From Lysobacterales bacterium (GTDB lineage Bacteria > Pseudomonadota > Gammaproteobacteria > Xanthomonadales > SZUA-38): a stretch of DNA of 64,000 nt. Below the pieces are notes generated by a model that saw only the letters and a program-made list of their open reading frames with translations, was not told the origin of the DNA and searched no databases. Shown piece by piece: positions 43,081 to 52,815 of the stretch. Within the stretch, counting starts at the first letter, position 1. The number at the start of each line of letters is the position of its first letter. The position numbers and the translations under genes are program-made. Location of the stretch: the NCBI GenBank assembly GCA_028285525.1, contig JANQOZ010000103.1:186001-250000 (forward strand), written 5' to 3'.

Positions 43081-43998
43081 ATGCTCCGCCTCTTACTGCT
43101 GGCGGCGCTCGTGCTGGCAGCGGTCGGCTGGCTGCTGTCGGCTCCGGCTTTGATCGCGAGCGAGGAGCTTCCGGCCCGGCAGGCGGATAGTGCGGCCGGC
43201 GAGCGGATATTCTGGGCCGGAGGATGTGGCTCCTGCCACGCCAGCCCGGTCGACGGCGAACGCGCCCAGGGGGACGATCGTCTCCTCCTGGGCGGCGGCC
43301 AGGAGTTTCACACGCCCTACGGCGTTTTTCGCGCCCCCAACATCTCGAGCGACCCAACCGACGGTATCGGCGGCTGGACAGATATCGAGTTTGTTAACGC
43401 CATGCAGCGCGGCGTCTCCCCGGACGGCGAGCACTACTACCCGGTTTTTCCTTTTGCGTCATACGCGCGGATGCCCGTTTCTGACGTCCTGGATCTCAAG
43501 GCCTTCCTGGACACGCTGCCGGCCGTAGCGGGTCGCGCTGGCGATCACGAGCTGACGTTTCCGTGGAGCGTGCGCCGCGGGATCGGCCTGTGGAAGCGTC
43601 GGTACCTGAGCAGCGATCCGGTTGTGGCCGTGGGCTCAGACGATCCCGCACTCGAACGCGGCCGGCTGCTCGTCGAGGGAGCCGGACACTGCGGCGAGTG
43701 CCACACGCCCAGGGACAAACTGGGCGGTCTACAGAAACAATACTGGCTGGCCGGTGCACCCGACCTCGAAGGCAAAGGGCGGATACCCAACATCACGCCG
43801 GCCAGCGACACGCTCAGCGACTGGTCGATCGACGACCTTGCGTACTATTTTGAGTCCGGATTCACGCCGGACTTTGATACCGCCGGCGGCACGATGGTGG
43901 CGGTGCAGGAAAACCTCGCACAGCTGGAGCCGGCGGACCGGGAGGCAATCGCCGCCTATCTCAAGGCTATTCCGGCCCAGACCGCGCCTGACCGGTAG
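43081..43998 (+). CDS. Membrane-anchored diheme cytochrome c
   Basis: A 305-residue exported cytochrome with heme motifs CGSCH (about residue 50) and CGECH (about residue 205), each in a class I cytochrome c domain, with distal methionine candidates such as ARMPVSD. An N-terminal hydrophobic segment (MLRLLLLAALVLAAVGWLL) is uncleaved or a signal. The arrangement resembles the cytochrome subunits of alcohol or aldehyde dehydrogenases and similar periplasmic oxidases; the catalytic partner is not in the window. It follows the cytochrome c' gene closely. Confidence 0.9.
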   Translation: MLRLLLLAALVLAAVGWLLSAPALIASEELPARQADSAAGERIFWAGGCGSCHASPVDGERAQGDDRLLLGGGQEFHTPYGVFRAPNISSDPTDGIGGWTDIEFVNAMQRGVSPDGEHYYPVFPFASYARMPVSDVLDLKAFLDTLPAVAGRAGDHELTFPWSVRRGIGLWKRRYLSSDPVVAVGSDDPALERGRLLVEGAGHCGECHTPRDKLGGLQKQYWLAGAPDLEGKGRIPNITPASDTLSDWSIDDLAYYFESGFTPDFDTAGGTMVAVQENLAQLEPADREAIAAYLKAIPAQTAPDR

Positions 43999-44016
43999 CT
44001 TCCGGCGCCAACCGGC

Positions 44017-44682
44017 TCAGCGAAACCGCCGGCCGATGTACCTCAACGTCGCACGAGTGGCAAAAGGCAGTGCTGCGAGGAGCCCGAGCGACAGCAGCAG
44101 CCCGGGATTGAGCAGGGCCGTCGGACTGAGTTCATCAACCGACTGCACCTGTGTGCCGAAATGGACCAGCAGCAGCAGCAGCGGAAACATGCCGCCCATG
44201 GTTGCGAGAAAGAAACGCCGCAGGTCGAGCGGCGTGAGCGCTGCAAGCAGGTTCAGCAGCCAAAACGGCACGACCGGGATCATCCGCAAGCCAAAGATAT
44301 AGAACGCACCGTCCGCCTCGATCCCTTTATTGATCTGAACCAGCTGGTCAGCGAAGCGCTGCTGAACCGGAGCGTGCAGCACGTAGCGCGACATGAGAAA
44401 CGCCAGGCTGCCGCCGCAAGTGCACGCGAGCAGCGTCAGGCCCAGCCCAAGCGCATGCCCGAACGTCATGCCGGCGATGACGGCCAGCACGCCGGTCACC
44501 GGCATCGACAGGGCCGTGCCAAGAAAACAGACGACAAAGAACACGCAGCTCGTGGCGACCGGCGCCTCAAGGTAGTGTGCCTGGAACGTCCGGGGGTCGA
44601 GGAGCTCTCGCCCACCCGCGAACATGTAGGCCAGCACGCTCAGCGCAACCAGTCCGATCATCGCCAGCTTTTTCCAGCCCAT
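44017..44682 (-). CDS. TVP38/TMEM64 family (DedA-like) membrane protein
   Basis: A 221-residue inner-membrane protein with about six hydrophobic segments. Family features are the GTALSMPVTGVLAVIAGMTFG and GGSLAFLMSRYV stretches, and the re-entrant segment GLRMIPVVPFWLLNLLAALT. Relatives in the DedA superfamily take part in lipid transbilayer movement and membrane maintenance. It ends a minus-strand pair with the larger alpha/beta hydrolase gene 9 bases upstream. The fusion protein encoded next to that gene is also lipid-related, which is suggestive. Confidence 0.88.
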   Translation of the reverse strand: MGWKKLAMIGLVALSVLAYMFAGGRELLDPRTFQAHYLEAPVATSCVFFVVCFLGTALSMPVTGVLAVIAGMTFGHALGLGLTLLACTCGGSLAFLMSRYVLHAPVQQRFADQLVQINKGIEADGAFYIFGLRMIPVVPFWLLNLLAALTPLDLRRFFLATMGGMFPLLLLLVHFGTQVQSVDELSPTALLNPGLLLSLGLLAALPFATRATLRYIGRRFR

Positions 44683-44691
44683 GGGCAGCGC

Positions 44692-46071
44692 TCAGGCCCG
44701 CTTCAGGATATCGGCAAACGCCAGCAGCGCCGTGTTGTCGTGGATCAACCCCAGCGGCACGGTGAAGTGGCCTCGATCGTACCGAAAGCGATTTCGGTCG
44801 GGAACGTTCCACAGGTCGAGCTGCGAGTCGACCAGCCTGTCCGGGGTCACCGTATCGCGCTCGCCAATCACGCTGACGATTCGATCGCCTGCCATGCAGG
44901 GCGCCGCCAGTGGATCGAGCTTCTCCAGCCATTCCTGCTCGGTGTCGCGATGCCAGCCGCGCTCCCGCATCGCCCCTCCGAGGTTCCAGATATCACTCAG
45001 GCTGCCGTCGAGCGCCGCCTCATACGTGTGCTGGCTGTGGGTCACCGCCAGCAGTGCGTCTGGCCGAAGGCGCTCGGGCCAGTCGTTTGCGCGGACCGCA
45101 ATGGCTTTGGCCGTTTGCGCGCCAAGGCTGCTGCCGCCGATGGCGACCGGCCCCGCGCTGGTGGCGCGGGCCCAGCCGATAATCGTGGCCCACTCGGCGT
45201 GCTGTGCTGCCAGAAAATCAAACATGCTGTTGGGGGTTGTGGACAGCAGCTGCTCGCCGCCGTAGTGGCCGGGCAGAACGCGCCGCCCGTGCCACGGCGC
45301 TTCGGGACGGATGACGCGAATCCCGCTCCGGGTCAGCTCCGTGACCTCATCGAGCAGCTGATGGTAGTGGTCAAACTCAACGCAGATCCCGTGACCAAAA
45401 ATCAACGTCGGCGGGTTGTCGACGCCCGTCGGTTCGTGCACCCGAGCGTAAACCTGGTCGTTCATCGCTGACGAGGGAGACGGAAAGCGAAGCCAGCGGT
45501 CGGAACCCGCTTTTGTAGGCAGCGCCCTGGACAGCTCTACCTCCGGCAGGGTGTCTGGCAGACTGAACAACGCCTCGAGCTTTTCTCCCTTCTCGCCAAA
45601 ACGTTCAGCCACCTTCGCCGGTGTCGGCGGATTCATCATGACGGAGGTGATCACCAGACGTCGCAGGGGCCTGAAAGCGCGTCGCGTGAGGTTGTAGGCA
45701 CTGCGAAAGTCCAGGCGCATTTCTTCAACGATCGGCAGGCGGCTTTTTTCCACCTCTTCATCGCCGAAGAAATACTCATGCCAGAGCTGCTCGGTGGAGA
45801 ACGCCTTCAGCCGGCAGCGCTCAAACTGCTCCAGCGCCCTGGCAATCCTGCGCCGCTGGTAACGATTCGGCGGATTCAGGGGCACGTGCCGGATGAACGC
45901 ATCGACGTCACCGTCAGCCGCCCGGGCCGCGGCCCAGAGTCGTGACAAGGGGAAAAACCAGTCCTGCAGCAGATACGCAATAACCCGATCGAGCCAGGGT
46001 CGTGCGACCATGCCACCCAGGCGTGAGCGGAGCAGGCCTAGCGACAGGTTATGGGTACGGGAGCCGGGCAT
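44692..46071 (-). CDS. Large alpha/beta-hydrolase protein (ABHD18/DUF2048-like)
   Basis: A 459-residue protein whose C-terminal half is an alpha/beta hydrolase: FGHGICVEF after the first strand, nucleophile elbow GGSSLGAQ, and a final histidine in DRGHFTVP. The N-terminal about 150 residues are arginine-rich and helical with no recognised domain, giving more length than a simple hydrolase; this resembles ABHD18-type proteins. Single or two-gene unit with TVP38. A lipid or ester substrate is conjectural. Confidence 0.78.
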   Translation of the reverse strand: MPGSRTHNLSLGLLRSRLGGMVARPWLDRVIAYLLQDWFFPLSRLWAAARAADGDVDAFIRHVPLNPPNRYQRRRIARALEQFERCRLKAFSTEQLWHEYFFGDEEVEKSRLPIVEEMRLDFRSAYNLTRRAFRPLRRLVITSVMMNPPTPAKVAERFGEKGEKLEALFSLPDTLPEVELSRALPTKAGSDRWLRFPSPSSAMNDQVYARVHEPTGVDNPPTLIFGHGICVEFDHYHQLLDEVTELTRSGIRVIRPEAPWHGRRVLPGHYGGEQLLSTTPNSMFDFLAAQHAEWATIIGWARATSAGPVAIGGSSLGAQTAKAIAVRANDWPERLRPDALLAVTHSQHTYEAALDGSLSDIWNLGGAMRERGWHRDTEQEWLEKLDPLAAPCMAGDRIVSVIGERDTVTPDRLVDSQLDLWNVPDRNRFRYDRGHFTVPLGLIHDNTALLAFADILKRA

Positions 46072-46177
46072 ATCATCATTTTACCCGACCGGTCGTCGCC
46101 AAGATGCGCACCGGCGAATTTTCCGCGCGGGCAGGCCGGGTGTATAACGTTAGGGTCCTGCGCTACGAGGCAACCGA

Positions 46178-49100
46178 TTGCAGCAAACCGCGTCGCTAGT
46201 GGAGCTTGTGTTGCCGTGGCTCGCGTGGGTCGCGGTTTTCCTGCTGGTTGGCTGGTGGCTTGTACGTCGCTGGGAATCGCAGCTCACCGCCAGGCAGTCC
46301 TACACGCTCAAGTTTCCGCTGTCGCCGATGGCTTTTCTGAACCGGCGCCTGATCATCGAAGGACTGGTGCAGGACCAGCAGGTGCAGGCGGCCATGAAAA
46401 GCCACGCGCAGCAGACCGGCGAGCACCTCGCCAGCGTCGAAAAGCGCGTGCGGCGCCAGGCTCATGAGCTGGTGCCGGCCTTCAAAGCGGTGTTTTACTT
46501 TTCGATCGGCTACTGGCTGGCGCGCCTCCTGCTGAGAACGATGTACCAGGTTCGCCTGGTCAGAGATGCCCGCGAGGAGTACGCCAAGATCCGCCCGGAC
46601 GCCACGGTGGTTCTCCTGATGAACCACCGGTCCAATATGGACGTTGTGCTGGTGAACTACCTGCTTGCCCGCCATTCCGCGGTCGCTCACGCGGCCGGCG
46701 AATGGGCGCGGCTCTGGCCGCTGCATCATCTGGTGCGCCTGGCCGGCAACTACGTGGTCGATCGGGATTCCAACGACCCCGTTTACCGGCTGGTGCTCAA
46801 ACGCTATGTACAGATGGCCGTCACGCACGGCATCCATCTGGCGATCTTTCCGGAAGGCAGTTTGACCCGCGACGGCCGCCTTCGGCCGTTGTCTTTTGGG
46901 CTGTTGAACTATGCCGCAACGGCCTCCTGGCCTGGTCTCGATCGAGACGTTGTGTTTATTCCCGTCAGCTTCAGCTACGACCAGGTGCCGGAACAGGAGC
47001 GGCTGGTCTTTGGCGATACCCGCGAGTTCGCCGACCGGGGGCGCCTGCACCTCCTCTGGGCCAGCCTGCGGTTTATCGGGGGTTTTCTGCGCTTGCCGTT
47101 TCGGCCTCGGGATGAACGCTACGGCTGGGCCTGCGCCACCTTTGGCCAGCCGCTGTCGCTTCGCAGCTGGCAGCGTTCGCAGGGCATCGATCTGAGAACC
47201 AGCCCCCGTGATGCCTTGCGCAGACACATCGGCGCGCTGGGCCAGCAGCTGATGGGAGAGGTGCTGCACAGCATGCCGGTGCTGCCCGTCCACCTGGTCG
47301 CCACTGCGCTCACCGAGCGTGACGACGCTTCGATGAAGCTGAATGCGCTGGAGGCACGTGTCGAGGAGCTTCGTGTGGCGGTTGAAGCAGCCGGCGCACC
47401 GGTCTTCGTCGATCCGGCCGCGGGAGGAAGTTTCACCGCGGAGGGACTGCACACGCTGGTCCAGGTTCAGGCGATCGAAGTTCCGGCTGAGGAGACGATT
47501 ACGGCCGTCCCAGCGCGGCTGGCGTTGCTGCACTATTACGCTCAAACGATAGCTCACTACCTTCCCGAGAGCCCTCCAGCAGCTGGCGGGGCGCTGCCGG
47601 CAAAACCCCGGAATCCGCGCAACTATCTCGCCACCGTCTACGAGTCATTTGCCCGGGCTCAGGAACGCACAGTGGACGACCAGGACTTTTTTGAACGTTT
47701 CTACCAGGAGTTCCTGTCCTCCTCTCCAGCGGTGTCCGAGCAGTTTTCCGGTACCGACATGTCGCAGCAGCAGCAGCATCTCAAAGCGTCTCTCAAGCAC
47801 ATGGTGGACTACTGCGCGAGCGGTACGCCGAGCGTGCGCCTGCGTCAGATGGCCCGAATGCACGGCCGCGGAGGCCGAGCGATTGCCGGCGATCTTTACG
47901 ACCTCTGGCTACGCAGTCTGATCAAGGCTCTGAGCCTCTACGACTCGGCGTTTGATCAACGCGTCGAGCTGTCCTGGCGCTCAGTCATGGCGCCCGGCAT
48001 CGACTACATGCGCAGCCAGTTCGATTACCCGGAAGAGCAATCGACTGTGCCGGTCTCGGACACACCGATCGTCAGCCAGGGGATCGCGCGCTGGGTGGAC
48101 CATTGGGCAGAGCGCGCCCCGGATCGCCCGGCGGTTAAGTCAGCGCAGCGGTCCCTCAGCTATGGTGAGCTGGCTGATGAAGCGGGTCGCCTGGCGGCCG
48201 GCCTGCACAGCCGCCTCGGCGTCAACAGCGGCGACCGCGTTGCGTTCCTGGCGGCCAACTGCGTTGAATTCATCGTGCTCTTATTCGCCTGCGCCCGTCT
48301 GGGCGCCGTGCTTGTTCCCATCAATTTTCGCTTAGCGACCGCTGAGCGGGAGCGCCTGGTGCAGCGCACCGAGTCCCGGGCTATCCTGCTGGATCGATCG
48401 CACGCCGATCAGCCTCTCACCGCCATTCCCGACTGCGTGCCGATTCACCTGGAAGACGCGCCGCCATCTTCGCCGGGCGTCAGCTATCGAGAACTCCTGC
48501 AGGTCCCCGGAGCCATGCGAACCAGTGACGGTAACCTGGATTCGCCGCTCCTGATCGTCTTTACCTCCGGCAGCACCGGTGATCCGAAGGGGGCGGTTCT
48601 GACTCAGGCAGCGGTTCAGTGCAACGCGCTGAACAGCCGGGTGATGCACGACATGACCCGCAACGATCACGTGGCAACCTGCCTCCCCTTCTTTCACGTG
48701 GGCGGCATCAACATTCAGACGCTTCCGGCCTTCCAGGTGGGCGCGTCGGTGACCATCTTCTCCCGCTTCGACCCTGAGCGATTTGTGGACTTTGTCGCCA
48801 GCGAGCGGCCGACGCTCACCGTGCTGGTGCCGGCGCAGATGCAAGTGCTCATGGATTTGCCGACCTGGCAGCGCTGCGATCTAAGCTCGCTGCGCATGGT
48901 CACCACCGGCTCGACGATTGTCAGCCAGGAGCTGATCCAGGCCTGGGCTGACAAGGGAGTGCCGGTCATTCAGGTATATGGCTGCACCGAATCCGGTCCC
49001 ATCGCTGCTCACCAGACCATCGAGGGGATCCGGTCCGGCTGGGCTACGGTGGGCCATGCCGCGCTCTACACCGAAGTCAGGGTGGCTGATGAGCAGGGTC

Positions 49101-49585
49101 AGCCTGCGGCCGTGGGCGTGGAGGGCGAGGTCTTGCTGCGCGGAGCCAATCTCGCCAGCCACTACTGGCGAGATGAATCGGCCACCCGGGAGGTCTTTCA
49201 GGACGGCTGGCTCCACACGGGGGATCTCGGCTACCTGGATCAAAACGGCCGCCTGCGGATCGTTGGGCGCAAAAAGCGTCTGATCATCTCCGGAGGCGAG
49301 AACATTCATCCCGCGGAGATCGAACAGGTCCTGGAGGCTCATGCCGGAGTGATCGAGGCGGCGGTGGTGGGGTTGAGCGACGACCAGTGGGGTGAGGTGC
49401 CGGTCGCGGTGGTGGTTATCACGGCTGACGGACCCGACGAGGCAGCGCTGAGACGACACCTGGATCAGCATCTGGGCCGTTACAAGCACCCGAACCGCAT
49501 CCTGTTTGTGGATGCCCTGCCGCGCACTGGACTGGACAAAATTGCCTACCCCGAAGTCCAGGAACTGATTAAGGGCGGCGCCTGA
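46178..49585 (+). CDS. Trifunctional fusion: PlsB-like acyltransferase, globin, AMP-forming acyl-CoA synthetase
   Basis: A 1135-residue membrane protein with three domains in order. First, a membrane segment (9-30) and a glycerolipid acyltransferase (about 45-380): NHRSNMD supplies the HxxxxD pair H150-D155, FPEGSLTR is at 224-231 and IPVSFSY at 261-267, the layout of PlsB/PlsC enzymes. Second, a globin fold (about 483-612): FFERFYQEFLSSSPAVSEQF with a CD1 phenylalanine at 523, a QQQ stretch at the distal position, and a candidate proximal histidine (H562 in MARMHGR). Third, an AMP-binding acyl-activating enzyme (about 630-1135): TSGSTGDPKG (796-805) and late GGENIHPAE. The start is TTG at 46178 with GAGG seven bases ahead. 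Confidence 0.9.
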   Translation: MQQTASLVELVLPWLAWVAVFLLVGWWLVRRWESQLTARQSYTLKFPLSPMAFLNRRLIIEGLVQDQQVQAAMKSHAQQTGEHLASVEKRVRRQAHELVPAFKAVFYFSIGYWLARLLLRTMYQVRLVRDAREEYAKIRPDATVVLLMNHRSNMDVVLVNYLLARHSAVAHAAGEWARLWPLHHLVRLAGNYVVDRDSNDPVYRLVLKRYVQMAVTHGIHLAIFPEGSLTRDGRLRPLSFGLLNYAATASWPGLDRDVVFIPVSFSYDQVPEQERLVFGDTREFADRGRLHLLWASLRFIGGFLRLPFRPRDERYGWACATFGQPLSLRSWQRSQGIDLRTSPRDALRRHIGALGQQLMGEVLHSMPVLPVHLVATALTERDDASMKLNALEARVEELRVAVEAAGAPVFVDPAAGGSFTAEGLHTLVQVQAIEVPAEETITAVPARLALLHYYAQTIAHYLPESPPAAGGALPAKPRNPRNYLATVYESFARAQERTVDDQDFFERFYQEFLSSSPAVSEQFSGTDMSQQQQHLKASLKHMVDYCASGTPSVRLRQMARMHGRGGRAIAGDLYDLWLRSLIKALSLYDSAFDQRVELSWRSVMAPGIDYMRSQFDYPEEQSTVPVSDTPIVSQGIARWVDHWAERAPDRPAVKSAQRSLSYGELADEAGRLAAGLHSRLGVNSGDRVAFLAANCVEFIVLLFACARLGAVLVPINFRLATAERERLVQRTESRAILLDRSHADQPLTAIPDCVPIHLEDAPPSSPGVSYRELLQVPGAMRTSDGNLDSPLLIVFTSGSTGDPKGAVLTQAAVQCNALNSRVMHDMTRNDHVATCLPFFHVGGINIQTLPAFQVGASVTIFSRFDPERFVDFVASERPTLTVLVPAQMQVLMDLPTWQRCDLSSLRMVTTGSTIVSQELIQAWADKGVPVIQVYGCTESGPIAAHQTIEGIRSGWATVGHAALYTEVRVADEQGQPAAVGVEGEVLLRGANLASHYWRDESATREVFQDGWLHTGDLGYLDQNGRLRIVGRKKRLIISGGENIHPAEIEQVLEAHAGVIEAAVVGLSDDQWGEVPVAVVVITADGPDEAALRRHLDQHLGRYKHPNRILFVDALPRTGLDKIAYPEVQELIKGGA

Positions 49586-49587
49586 GG

Positions 49588-49605
49588 CCGTCATATTTTT
49601 GTAAC
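49588..49605 (+). promoter_or_regulatory. Candidate PhoB (Pho) box upstream of the phosphate transporter gene
   Basis: Just after the stop codon of the acyltransferase fusion gene the plus strand reads CCGTCAT-ATTT-TTGTAAC, two 7-base units with an AT-rich 4-base spacer as in Pho boxes (consensus CTGTCAT repeats); the match is good in the first unit and partial in the second. It lies about 230 bases upstream of the PiT gene. It could be coincidental; no phoB/phoR genes are in the window. Confidence 0.4.
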
Positions 49606-51820: not shown

Positions 51821-52189
51821 TCATGGGCGCAAGTCGCTAAGGTGGCACGCGATGCATTGTCGCACTGGACCGCTGACCTTGCCGGCAGCAGCTTCCTTTT
51901 CGTGGCAGCCGCGACAAAAGTCGTGGAACTGCGGTTCCAGCAGGCCGCTGACCGACGTGTCGGACACGTGACAGTGCATACACGGCTCGCCGCCGGTGTC
52001 ATCGACAAAGTTGTGGTGACAGTCCATACATCGAGTCTCGGTGTGGTCACCGTGTGCAAACGTCATGGGCAGGATCACTTCGGGGCTGCCGTAGTAGTGG
52101 GCCTTTTCCGGGTATGCGCTCGCAAACGGAGTCCCGTAGGTCAGCAGCCAGACCACGATGAGTGTCAGCAATACGAGAAGCGTCTTCAC
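51821..52189 (-). CDS. Membrane-anchored tetraheme cytochrome c (c3-like)
   Basis: A 122-residue exported cytochrome with four heme motifs, CMDCH (54-58), CMHCH (70-74), CRGCH (92-96) and CIACH (112-116), plus extra histidines such as FAHGDHT and CHHNF that can act as second axial ligands. The N-terminus is a single hydrophobic segment (VKTLLVLLTLIVVWLLTYG), a signal or anchor. The GTG start at 52189 overlaps the stop codon of the upstream cytochrome b-like gene (GTGA). A much longer open frame runs to 52594 in the same phase but lies inside the upstream gene and is not used. Confidence 0.9.
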   Translation of the reverse strand: MKTLLVLLTLIVVWLLTYGTPFASAYPEKAHYYGSPEVILPMTFAHGDHTETRCMDCHHNFVDDTGGEPCMHCHVSDTSVSGLLEPQFHDFCRGCHEKEAAAGKVSGPVRQCIACHLSDLRP

Positions 52190-52815
52190 AGGCCGAGATT
52201 TCTGATCGCGGAGAAAGCCAGTGCCGCCAGCAGCGACATGCTCAGCAGAGTCACTGGCGTTGAACGACGCAACGGAGGCAGCCAACGCCAAAGGCCGCCG
52301 CCGGCAAGCACCAGCAGCAGCAGCGTCGCCAGCGCGGCAAGCTGCCAGCCGTTTCTGAGGTAATAACCGCTGAACACCACGTGGTGCGCGCTGAGCAGCA
52401 CAACGGCGGCGCCTAACACTCGGTGCCAATACCGGAATACCCCGTAGCTCCGATGGACTCGGGCCCGGGTCGGCATCTGGGCGAGCATCATCAGGACAAA
52501 CAACAGCAGCACCGACAGGAGGCCGGTCCACATGTAGGCCGGAGCGCCGGGCTTGATGTACTCCAAGGCAGCAGGGTCCGCGAGCAAGAACCACAGCGCG
52601 TGTAACAGAATAACCGCCAGCACGGCGTAGCTGAGCCGCTGGTGCGCTCGAACGTCGCGGCGGGCAATGCCCGGAATAGACAGGTACAGCAGCCCCGCGA
52701 GCGCGGCGAAACCCAATCCGTTATCGGCATCCCAGGCCCAGCCCGCTCCGAAGGTAGGCACGGCCAAAAAGGTCAACCCCAGAACAACGAGGAGAAAGAC
52801 CGCGAGCAGCTGCAC
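52186..52815 (-). CDS. Ferric-reductase-like/cytochrome b-type membrane protein
   Basis: A 209-residue protein with about six transmembrane helices. Histidines sit at helix ends in pairs suited to heme b or quinone binding (VRAHQRLSYAVLAVILLHALW, FRYWHRVLG, LLSAHHVVFSGYY). This pattern resembles the ferric-reductase-like transmembrane domain (YedZ/NOX type). It is the first gene of a unit with the tetraheme cytochrome and the VIT1 transporter, so electrons likely pass between membrane and periplasm here. The GTG start at 52815 has AGGGA five bases ahead. Confidence 0.82.
   Translation of the reverse strand: MQLLAVFLLVVLGLTFLAVPTFGAGWAWDADNGLGFAALAGLLYLSIPGIARRDVRAHQRLSYAVLAVILLHALWFLLADPAALEYIKPGAPAYMWTGLLSVLLLFVLMMLAQMPTRARVHRSYGVFRYWHRVLGAAVVLLSAHHVVFSGYYLRNGWQLAALATLLLLVLAGGGLWRWLPPLRRSTPVTLLSMSLLAALAFSAIRNLGL

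Follow-up and report, generated by a model that had tools for sequence, protein, structure and literature searches.

A globin domain lodged between two lipid enzymes is encoded in the 64,000-nt stretch of Lysobacterales contig JANQOZ010000103.1 analyzed here (the window). The gene (46178..49585, forward strand; TTG start) specifies a fusion protein of 1135 aa in which a PlsB-like acyltransferase is followed by the globin and then by an acyl-CoA-synthetase-like ligase. Residues 483–612 make up an entire 3/3 globin of PA3967 type, belonging to the flavohemoglobin (F) lineage. By its residues the heme pocket is of flavohemoglobin type, and fuller than the earlier note on this DNA had claimed, since a tyrosine at B10 and a leucine at E11 match as well.

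Domain Layout of the Fusion

The globin segment (47624-48013, forward strand, as are all features of the gene given below) corresponds to codons 483–612 of the frame. The chain opens with a hydrophobic stretch at aa 10–29 (46205..46264), picked out by eye on the translation, which is a probable membrane anchor; a similar stretch opens the unfused homologues. It is followed by an Acyltransferase domain (PF01553, 6.5e-16; aa 137–265, 46586..46972), including the motifs NHRSNMD (149–155) and FPEG (224–227), and by part of a GPAT_C domain (PF19277, 3.4e-14; aa 302–461, 47081..47560). A 17-aa linker, 12 of whose residues are P, G, A, S, or T (aa 463–479, 47564..47614; borders from genome-search matches and the AlphaFold2 model), leads into the globin domain, identified by sequence, profile, and structure matches and modeled as aa 477–618, with helices over aa 480–613 (47606..48031). 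Between globin and ligase is a second linker, of 19 aa (aa 614–632, 48017..48073). The ligase comprises an AMP-binding domain (PF00501, 1.3e-79; aa 641–997, 48098..49168) and an AMP-binding_C domain (Pfam; aa 1047–1121, 49316..49540) whose last residue is the A10 lysine, K1121, a lysine in 19/19 homologues.

A Pfam scan of the whole protein found no FAD/NAD reductase domain. The globin is central in the chain and its partners are lipid enzymes, so that the layout is not that of a globin-coupled sensor (N-terminal globin plus signaling domain); nor is it that of the free-standing globins of about 130–150 aa of the PA3967 type, the domain being inside a 1135-aa frame.

Identity of the Globin Domain

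With the segment alone as query, the solved structure nearest to it is that of PA3967 from Pseudomonas aeruginosa (PDB 1TU9; E 8.2e-20). A profile of the family (53 members) matched 1TU9 at 7.8e-53 and flavohemoproteins at about 1e-8, the order of matches being 1TU9, Hell's Gate globin I (HGb-I; 3S1I), flavohemoproteins, a globin-Roadblock protein, and Vitreoscilla hemoglobin. The AlphaFold2 model of the domain has a globin fold with seven helices (mean pLDDT 92.2) and superposes on 1TU9 at 1.5 Å over 131 residues (Z 21.2, against about 16 for the rows that follow); Foldseek likewise ranks 1TU9 first (E 1.8e-7). Identity to the nearest free relatives is 36–46%. Standard annotation misses the domain: on the fusion protein the Bac_globin model reaches 15.8 bits where its cut-off asks for 21, and PF00042 is absent from the matches. 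Of the 53 globin family members scanned, 47 match PF00042 at E<=10.

The window's own genome has a weak second match (C83; E 0.119 over 38 residues). Another genome of the same order (G050) has two globins of the broad family (L003 and L014), the first of them on a very long branch.

Heme Pocket Residues

The pocket was read from an alignment in which the segment was compared with 90 rows taken from retrieved loci (tblastn, E <= 1e-8). Four more rows had been removed because of stops in the extended stretch, and at least 3 of the 90 used are second records of a contig already represented (L059/L092, L060/L099, L062/L132). Six columns fall on residues of the flavohemoprotein 1CQX in the printed alignment: Y509 (47702..47704; 90/90 rows) on Tyr B10, within the column of the 1CQX FY pair; F523 (47744..47746; 90/90) on Phe CD1; Q531 (47768..47770; 89/90, the column equivalence being read from the profile alignment) on Gln E7; L535 (47780..47782; 90/90) on Leu E11; H562 (47861..47863; 90/90) on His F8, the proximal histidine; and Y574, a G-helix tyrosine (47897..47899; 89/90), on the Tyr after the F helix of flavohemoproteins. 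The helix-position names (B10, CD1, E7, E11, F8) are those that we take to apply to the columns aligned with 1CQX. W577 and W600 are also invariant (90/90 family rows).

These columns bear on most of what the earlier note had proposed. It placed a proximal histidine at F8, 39 residues after the CD1 phenylalanine, a glutamine run on the E helix, and a terminal MAPGIDYM; the translation has F523, H562, Q530–Q533, and MAPGIDYM (604–611) just there, and the F8 and CD1 assignments agree with the columns of both 1TU9 and 1CQX. A histidine displaced from F8, or a CD1 position without an aromatic residue, was looked for in the family and flavohemoprotein alignments and was not found. The suggestion that glutamine replaces the distal histidine can be narrowed to a single residue, since the E7 position is taken by Q531, second of the four glutamines, and not by the run as a whole. 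The description of MAPGIDYM as a frequent ending held for its GI pair (80/90 rows), but the fuller GIxYM pattern occurs in just 24/90.

The note's further proposal, of a functional pocket rather than a heme-free relic, can be set against the conservation of the whole domain. Where the globin family is at least 95% conserved, the window copy keeps 18 of 20 columns, compared with 15/25 in the middle class and 18/89 in the variable class (Fisher p 7e-9 for conserved versus variable and 0.04 for conserved versus middle, values that serve only as a guide because the rows are related). The two conserved columns lost are S494 and P571. The branch of the window globin is long (1.72 changes per column, where the median is 0.28, in a tree of 47 rows under 80% identity), and its placement is unsure. 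The pattern is one of drift outside the pocket, whose own columns are retained, and it makes a heme-free relic unlikely. The sub-threshold Pfam score, the long branch, and the loss of S494 and P571 are what one might expect of a relic, or of a globin reused for acyl-chain binding without heme; the retention of B10, CD1, E7, E11, F8, W577, and W600 is not, and we give this pair of explanations very little probability. As far as residues can indicate it, the proposal of a functional pocket is thus supported, and H562 very probably ligates a heme b in this domain, which Tyr B10 and Gln E7 would face from the distal side.

In E. coli flavohemoglobin, a part of PMC7948479 describes bound O2 as stabilized by Tyr B10 and Gln E7, ligands as gated by Leu E11, and electron transfer as passing via Lys F7. 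This lysine is without counterpart in the present family, the position being Met561 in the fusion and Ser in 57/90 relatives, which makes it less likely that the domain simply repeats the chemistry of flavohemoglobin.

The missing lysine also bears on a catalytic role for the heme, in which the globin would detoxify NO or reduce lipid hydroperoxides at the membrane, beside the acyl-handling enzymes. Tyr B10, Gln E7, and Leu E11 are as in the flavohemoglobin NO dioxygenase, and slow alkyl hydroperoxide reductase activity is among the properties of E. coli flavohemoglobin covered in a part of PMC3820574. The same part of that article doubts the benefit of this activity and calls the peroxide role questionable, while HGb-I is described in a section of PMC11203436 as having no lipid peroxidase activity. 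Together with the absence of a reductase domain from the chain and the replacement of Lys F7, this makes a catalytic heme unlikely in our estimation.

The Two Enzyme Halves

The acyltransferase half (aa 1–475) scores 92.6 bits on the plsB model (TIGR03703), which is far short of the cut-off of 618.5. On the Aas models PRK08633 and PRK06814, whose cut-offs are 1221 and 1349, this half of the chain scores 25.9 and 22.8 bits. With the whole chain as query, neither Aas model is among the 25 conserved-domain matches listed out of 116. Blocks I and III of the acyltransferase are kept, as NHRSNMD (HX4D) and FPEG. In block II, Asp195 (46760-46762) stands in place of an Arg found in 21/21 acyltransferase homologues, while R196 is kept. 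The Arg pair of block II has a role in glycerol-3-phosphate binding. Because Asp195 replaces an invariant Arg, a change of acceptor has to be considered: the enzyme may use an acyl acceptor other than glycerol-3-phosphate, or may have lost activity.

The ligase half keeps the A3 P-loop (TSGSTGDPKG), A8 (SGGEN), and the A10 lysine; D1120 and Y1124, close to the latter, differ from residues that are the same in 19/19 homologues. Given Asp195, D1120, and Y1124, either half may have a changed or reduced activity. A full-length PlsB-like gene (open frame of 842 aa) is present elsewhere in the host genome, and the fusion is therefore an extra enzyme.

Gene Neighborhood and History

Upstream of the fusion gene and divergent from it is a gene for an alpha/beta hydrolase (44692..46071, reverse strand; PF12697 at 25.2 bits, just under the cut-off of 26.3), followed on the same strand by one for a VTT-domain (DedA/TVP38-type) membrane protein (44017..44682; PF09335, 3.4e-20). 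These three genes make up a block of 5.6 kb (43989..49589) that is absent from a congener (G001), where the matching flanks meet at a join of about 108 bp; the flanks match those of the window at 79 and 81% on the two sides. At the thresholds applied, neither the globin nor the short acyltransferase nor the hydrolase finds a match in G001, and the hydrolase is unmatched in two further genomes (G002 and G003). Since the block is absent from G001 and the hydrolase from the matches in G002 and G003, the more economical explanation, though not proven, is that the window's lineage gained the block. No convincing mobile-element repeats were seen at the block borders among the short repeats listed. 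A similarity (77%) between 44153-44187 and the codons of the QQQQ run (repeat family D1) was taken as chance.

Two genomes from another family of the same order (G464 and G499) have the gene order hydrolase, unfused 483-aa acyltransferase, VTT protein (L174, 5333-8892; L175, 5210-8751), with hydrolases 64–69% identical between the window and these genomes. Because the same neighbors flank an unfused copy there, the acyltransferase can be assigned to a shared three-gene set, to which the globin and the ligase look to have been added. The set of hydrolase, short acyltransferase, and VTT protein is, as far as checked, an undescribed lipid gene set. Two cytochrome c genes, one of di-heme type (43081-43998) and one of class III type (51821-52594), lie on either side of a stretch that includes the block and the phosphate transporter.

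The gene setting also bears on the possibility that separate genes were wrongly joined in assembly. The genome is a draft in 125 contigs, with an estimated contamination of 2.09%, and the fusion has a single occurrence. Both domain borders are nonetheless in frame, with no stop over 1143 codons; the acyltransferase, globin, and ligase parts are alike in third-position GC (0.772, 0.761, and 0.772); both outer flanks match the congener; and the acyltransferase, hydrolase, and VTT genes occur as a set elsewhere. An artefact of this kind is accordingly highly improbable.

Occurrence of the Fusion

The fusion was seen in the window's own genome only, over a running total of 1617 genomes (small searches included). 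No second case was found with the globin as query in 61 relatives' genomes; with the acyltransferase plus globin in 41 relatives, 398 genomes of the phylum, 398 of the order, 39 of family f7, and 369 of the class; or with the globin plus ligase in 299 genomes of the order. The samples overlap; the larger ones are draws from their group, with scoring limited in them to the top few candidates of each genome. The globin scan of the genome collection required a match to one peptide pattern. No second Pfam domain was found in five long stop-to-stop frames that surround globins (L082, L096, L089, L113, and L120). Matches to the globin on plasmids came from 10 records, at 23–36% identity. A 1175-aa frame over an acyltransferase in one genome (G988) was considered as a candidate fusion and rejected: its extra length is upstream, antisense to another gene, and it stops at the acyltransferase end, without globin or ligase.

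One family of the phylum commonly has unfused short acyltransferases (31–43% identical over the match, open frames mostly of 470–590 aa), which occur sporadically in the class. PlsB-like acyltransferases of 460–540 aa that do not have the usual PlsB N-terminal part (L037-L057) are widespread in a single family of the phylum, f65. Since free globins and acyltransferases cannot be anchored along its whole length, a composite alignment over the full chain (A3) retains hardly any conserved columns.

A single case is no proof of conserved coupling. It fits a neutral tether: a fusion private to one lineage, whose globin would bind heme yet serve just as spacer or scaffold for the two enzymes, without regulating them; the flexible linkers and the long branch agree with this too. 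The preservation of pocket columns while the rest of the globin drifts (18/20 against 18/89) is harder to reconcile with a mere spacer, and we think such a tether improbable.

Possible Function

The explanation that we favor, tentatively and at somewhat less than an even chance, is that the fusion is an Aas-like enzyme of acyl activation and transfer whose cycle is tuned to O2, NO, or lipid by a heme globin module. It is supported by the globin fold, the pocket, the kept enzyme motifs, the linkers, and the lipid-gene setting shared with G464 and G499; from the fold, pocket residues, domain order, motifs, and setting, which are observed, we infer heme binding, acyl recycling, and regulation. 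Aas recycles fatty acids into phospholipids, and VTT/DedA proteins are lipid movers. In the fusion, the C-terminal ligase would activate a fatty acid with ATP, and the N-terminal PlsB-like acyltransferase, probably tethered to the membrane, would then acylate a glycerolipid acceptor; in this way the whole chain, like the bifunctional Aas, might return fatty acids to phospholipids. The neighboring hydrolase and VTT protein could contribute lipid release and movement, to be followed by re-acylation. Binding of O2, NO, or an acyl chain in the distal pocket would then alter the shape or redox state of the globin and, through it, the activity or coupling of the two enzymes. In its more definite form, heme-gated lipid remodeling, the globin would read O2, NO, or an acyl chain and switch the acylation of membrane phospholipids up or down within one polypeptide; this is conceivable, but we consider it doubtful.

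A regulatory heme module is favored over a catalytic heme, a neutral tether, and a heme-free relic because of the lipid links in print for this globin lineage. According to a part of PMC11203436, heme coordination in HGb-I changes upon oleate binding, with an apparent Kd of 0.73 μM at 20°C, and the distal pocket of E. coli flavohemoglobin is reported as lipid-binding in a section of PMC3820574. Several points count against the regulatory reading: conservation of the coupling is not seen, there being one case of the fusion; the changes at Asp195, D1120, and Y1124 and the long globin branch; and the flexible linkers, which would make for loose coupling. A further point is that no acyltransferase or ligase homologue (E<=1e-6) lies near any of 80 free relatives of the globin (the best 80 of 132), so that the link between the family and lipids rests on this gene.

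Some bacterial globins bind lipids in vitro, with a cellular meaning that is unsettled in the portions of PMC11203436 and PMC3820574 bearing on it. A natural fusion of a globin with fatty-acid activation and transfer would make the lipid question testable in one purified protein: binding of oxygen, nitric oxide, or lipid at the heme may be tied to these two activities. It also illustrates that a globin with an intact pocket can fall below the Pfam cut-off within a protein annotated as a lipid enzyme alone.

Comparison with Known Systems

In its fold and in all pocket residues, the domain resembles PA3967 (1TU9) and the free globins of its type. These are independent proteins of about 130–150 aa, whereas the present copy is inside a lipid enzyme. 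With flavohemoglobins (1CQX, 1GVH) and Vitreoscilla hemoglobin (1VHB) it shares the Tyr B10, Phe CD1, Gln E7, Leu E11, and His F8 columns; unlike them, the fusion has neither the FAD/NAD reductase domain nor Lys F7, and its globin is not N-terminal.

On the enzyme side, the nearest parallel is Aas (acyl-[ACP]--phospholipid O-acyltransferase), which also joins an acyltransferase and an AMP-binding ligase in one chain. The acyltransferase half of the fusion is however nearer PlsB (92.6 bits) than the Aas models (22.8–25.9 bits), and here a globin stands between the halves.

A 2006 survey, in the part of it that deals with chimeric globins, describes these as generally having an N-terminal globin, and as being flavohemoglobins or globin-coupled sensors (PMC1457004). 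Among the titles listed from the open-access literature, none describes a protein that unites a globin with an acyltransferase or an acyl-CoA synthetase. An internal globin is also present in a NO synthase (9Q05, matched over residues 363–463), and globins joined to non-flavin partners are known from the globin-Roadblock/LC7 protein (3WFW) and the globin-coupled sensors. The partners in those proteins are NO synthase, Roadblock, or signaling domains, while here they are lipid enzymes; an intact pocket by itself is ordinary, and what is new among chimeric globins is a globin lodged between these two.
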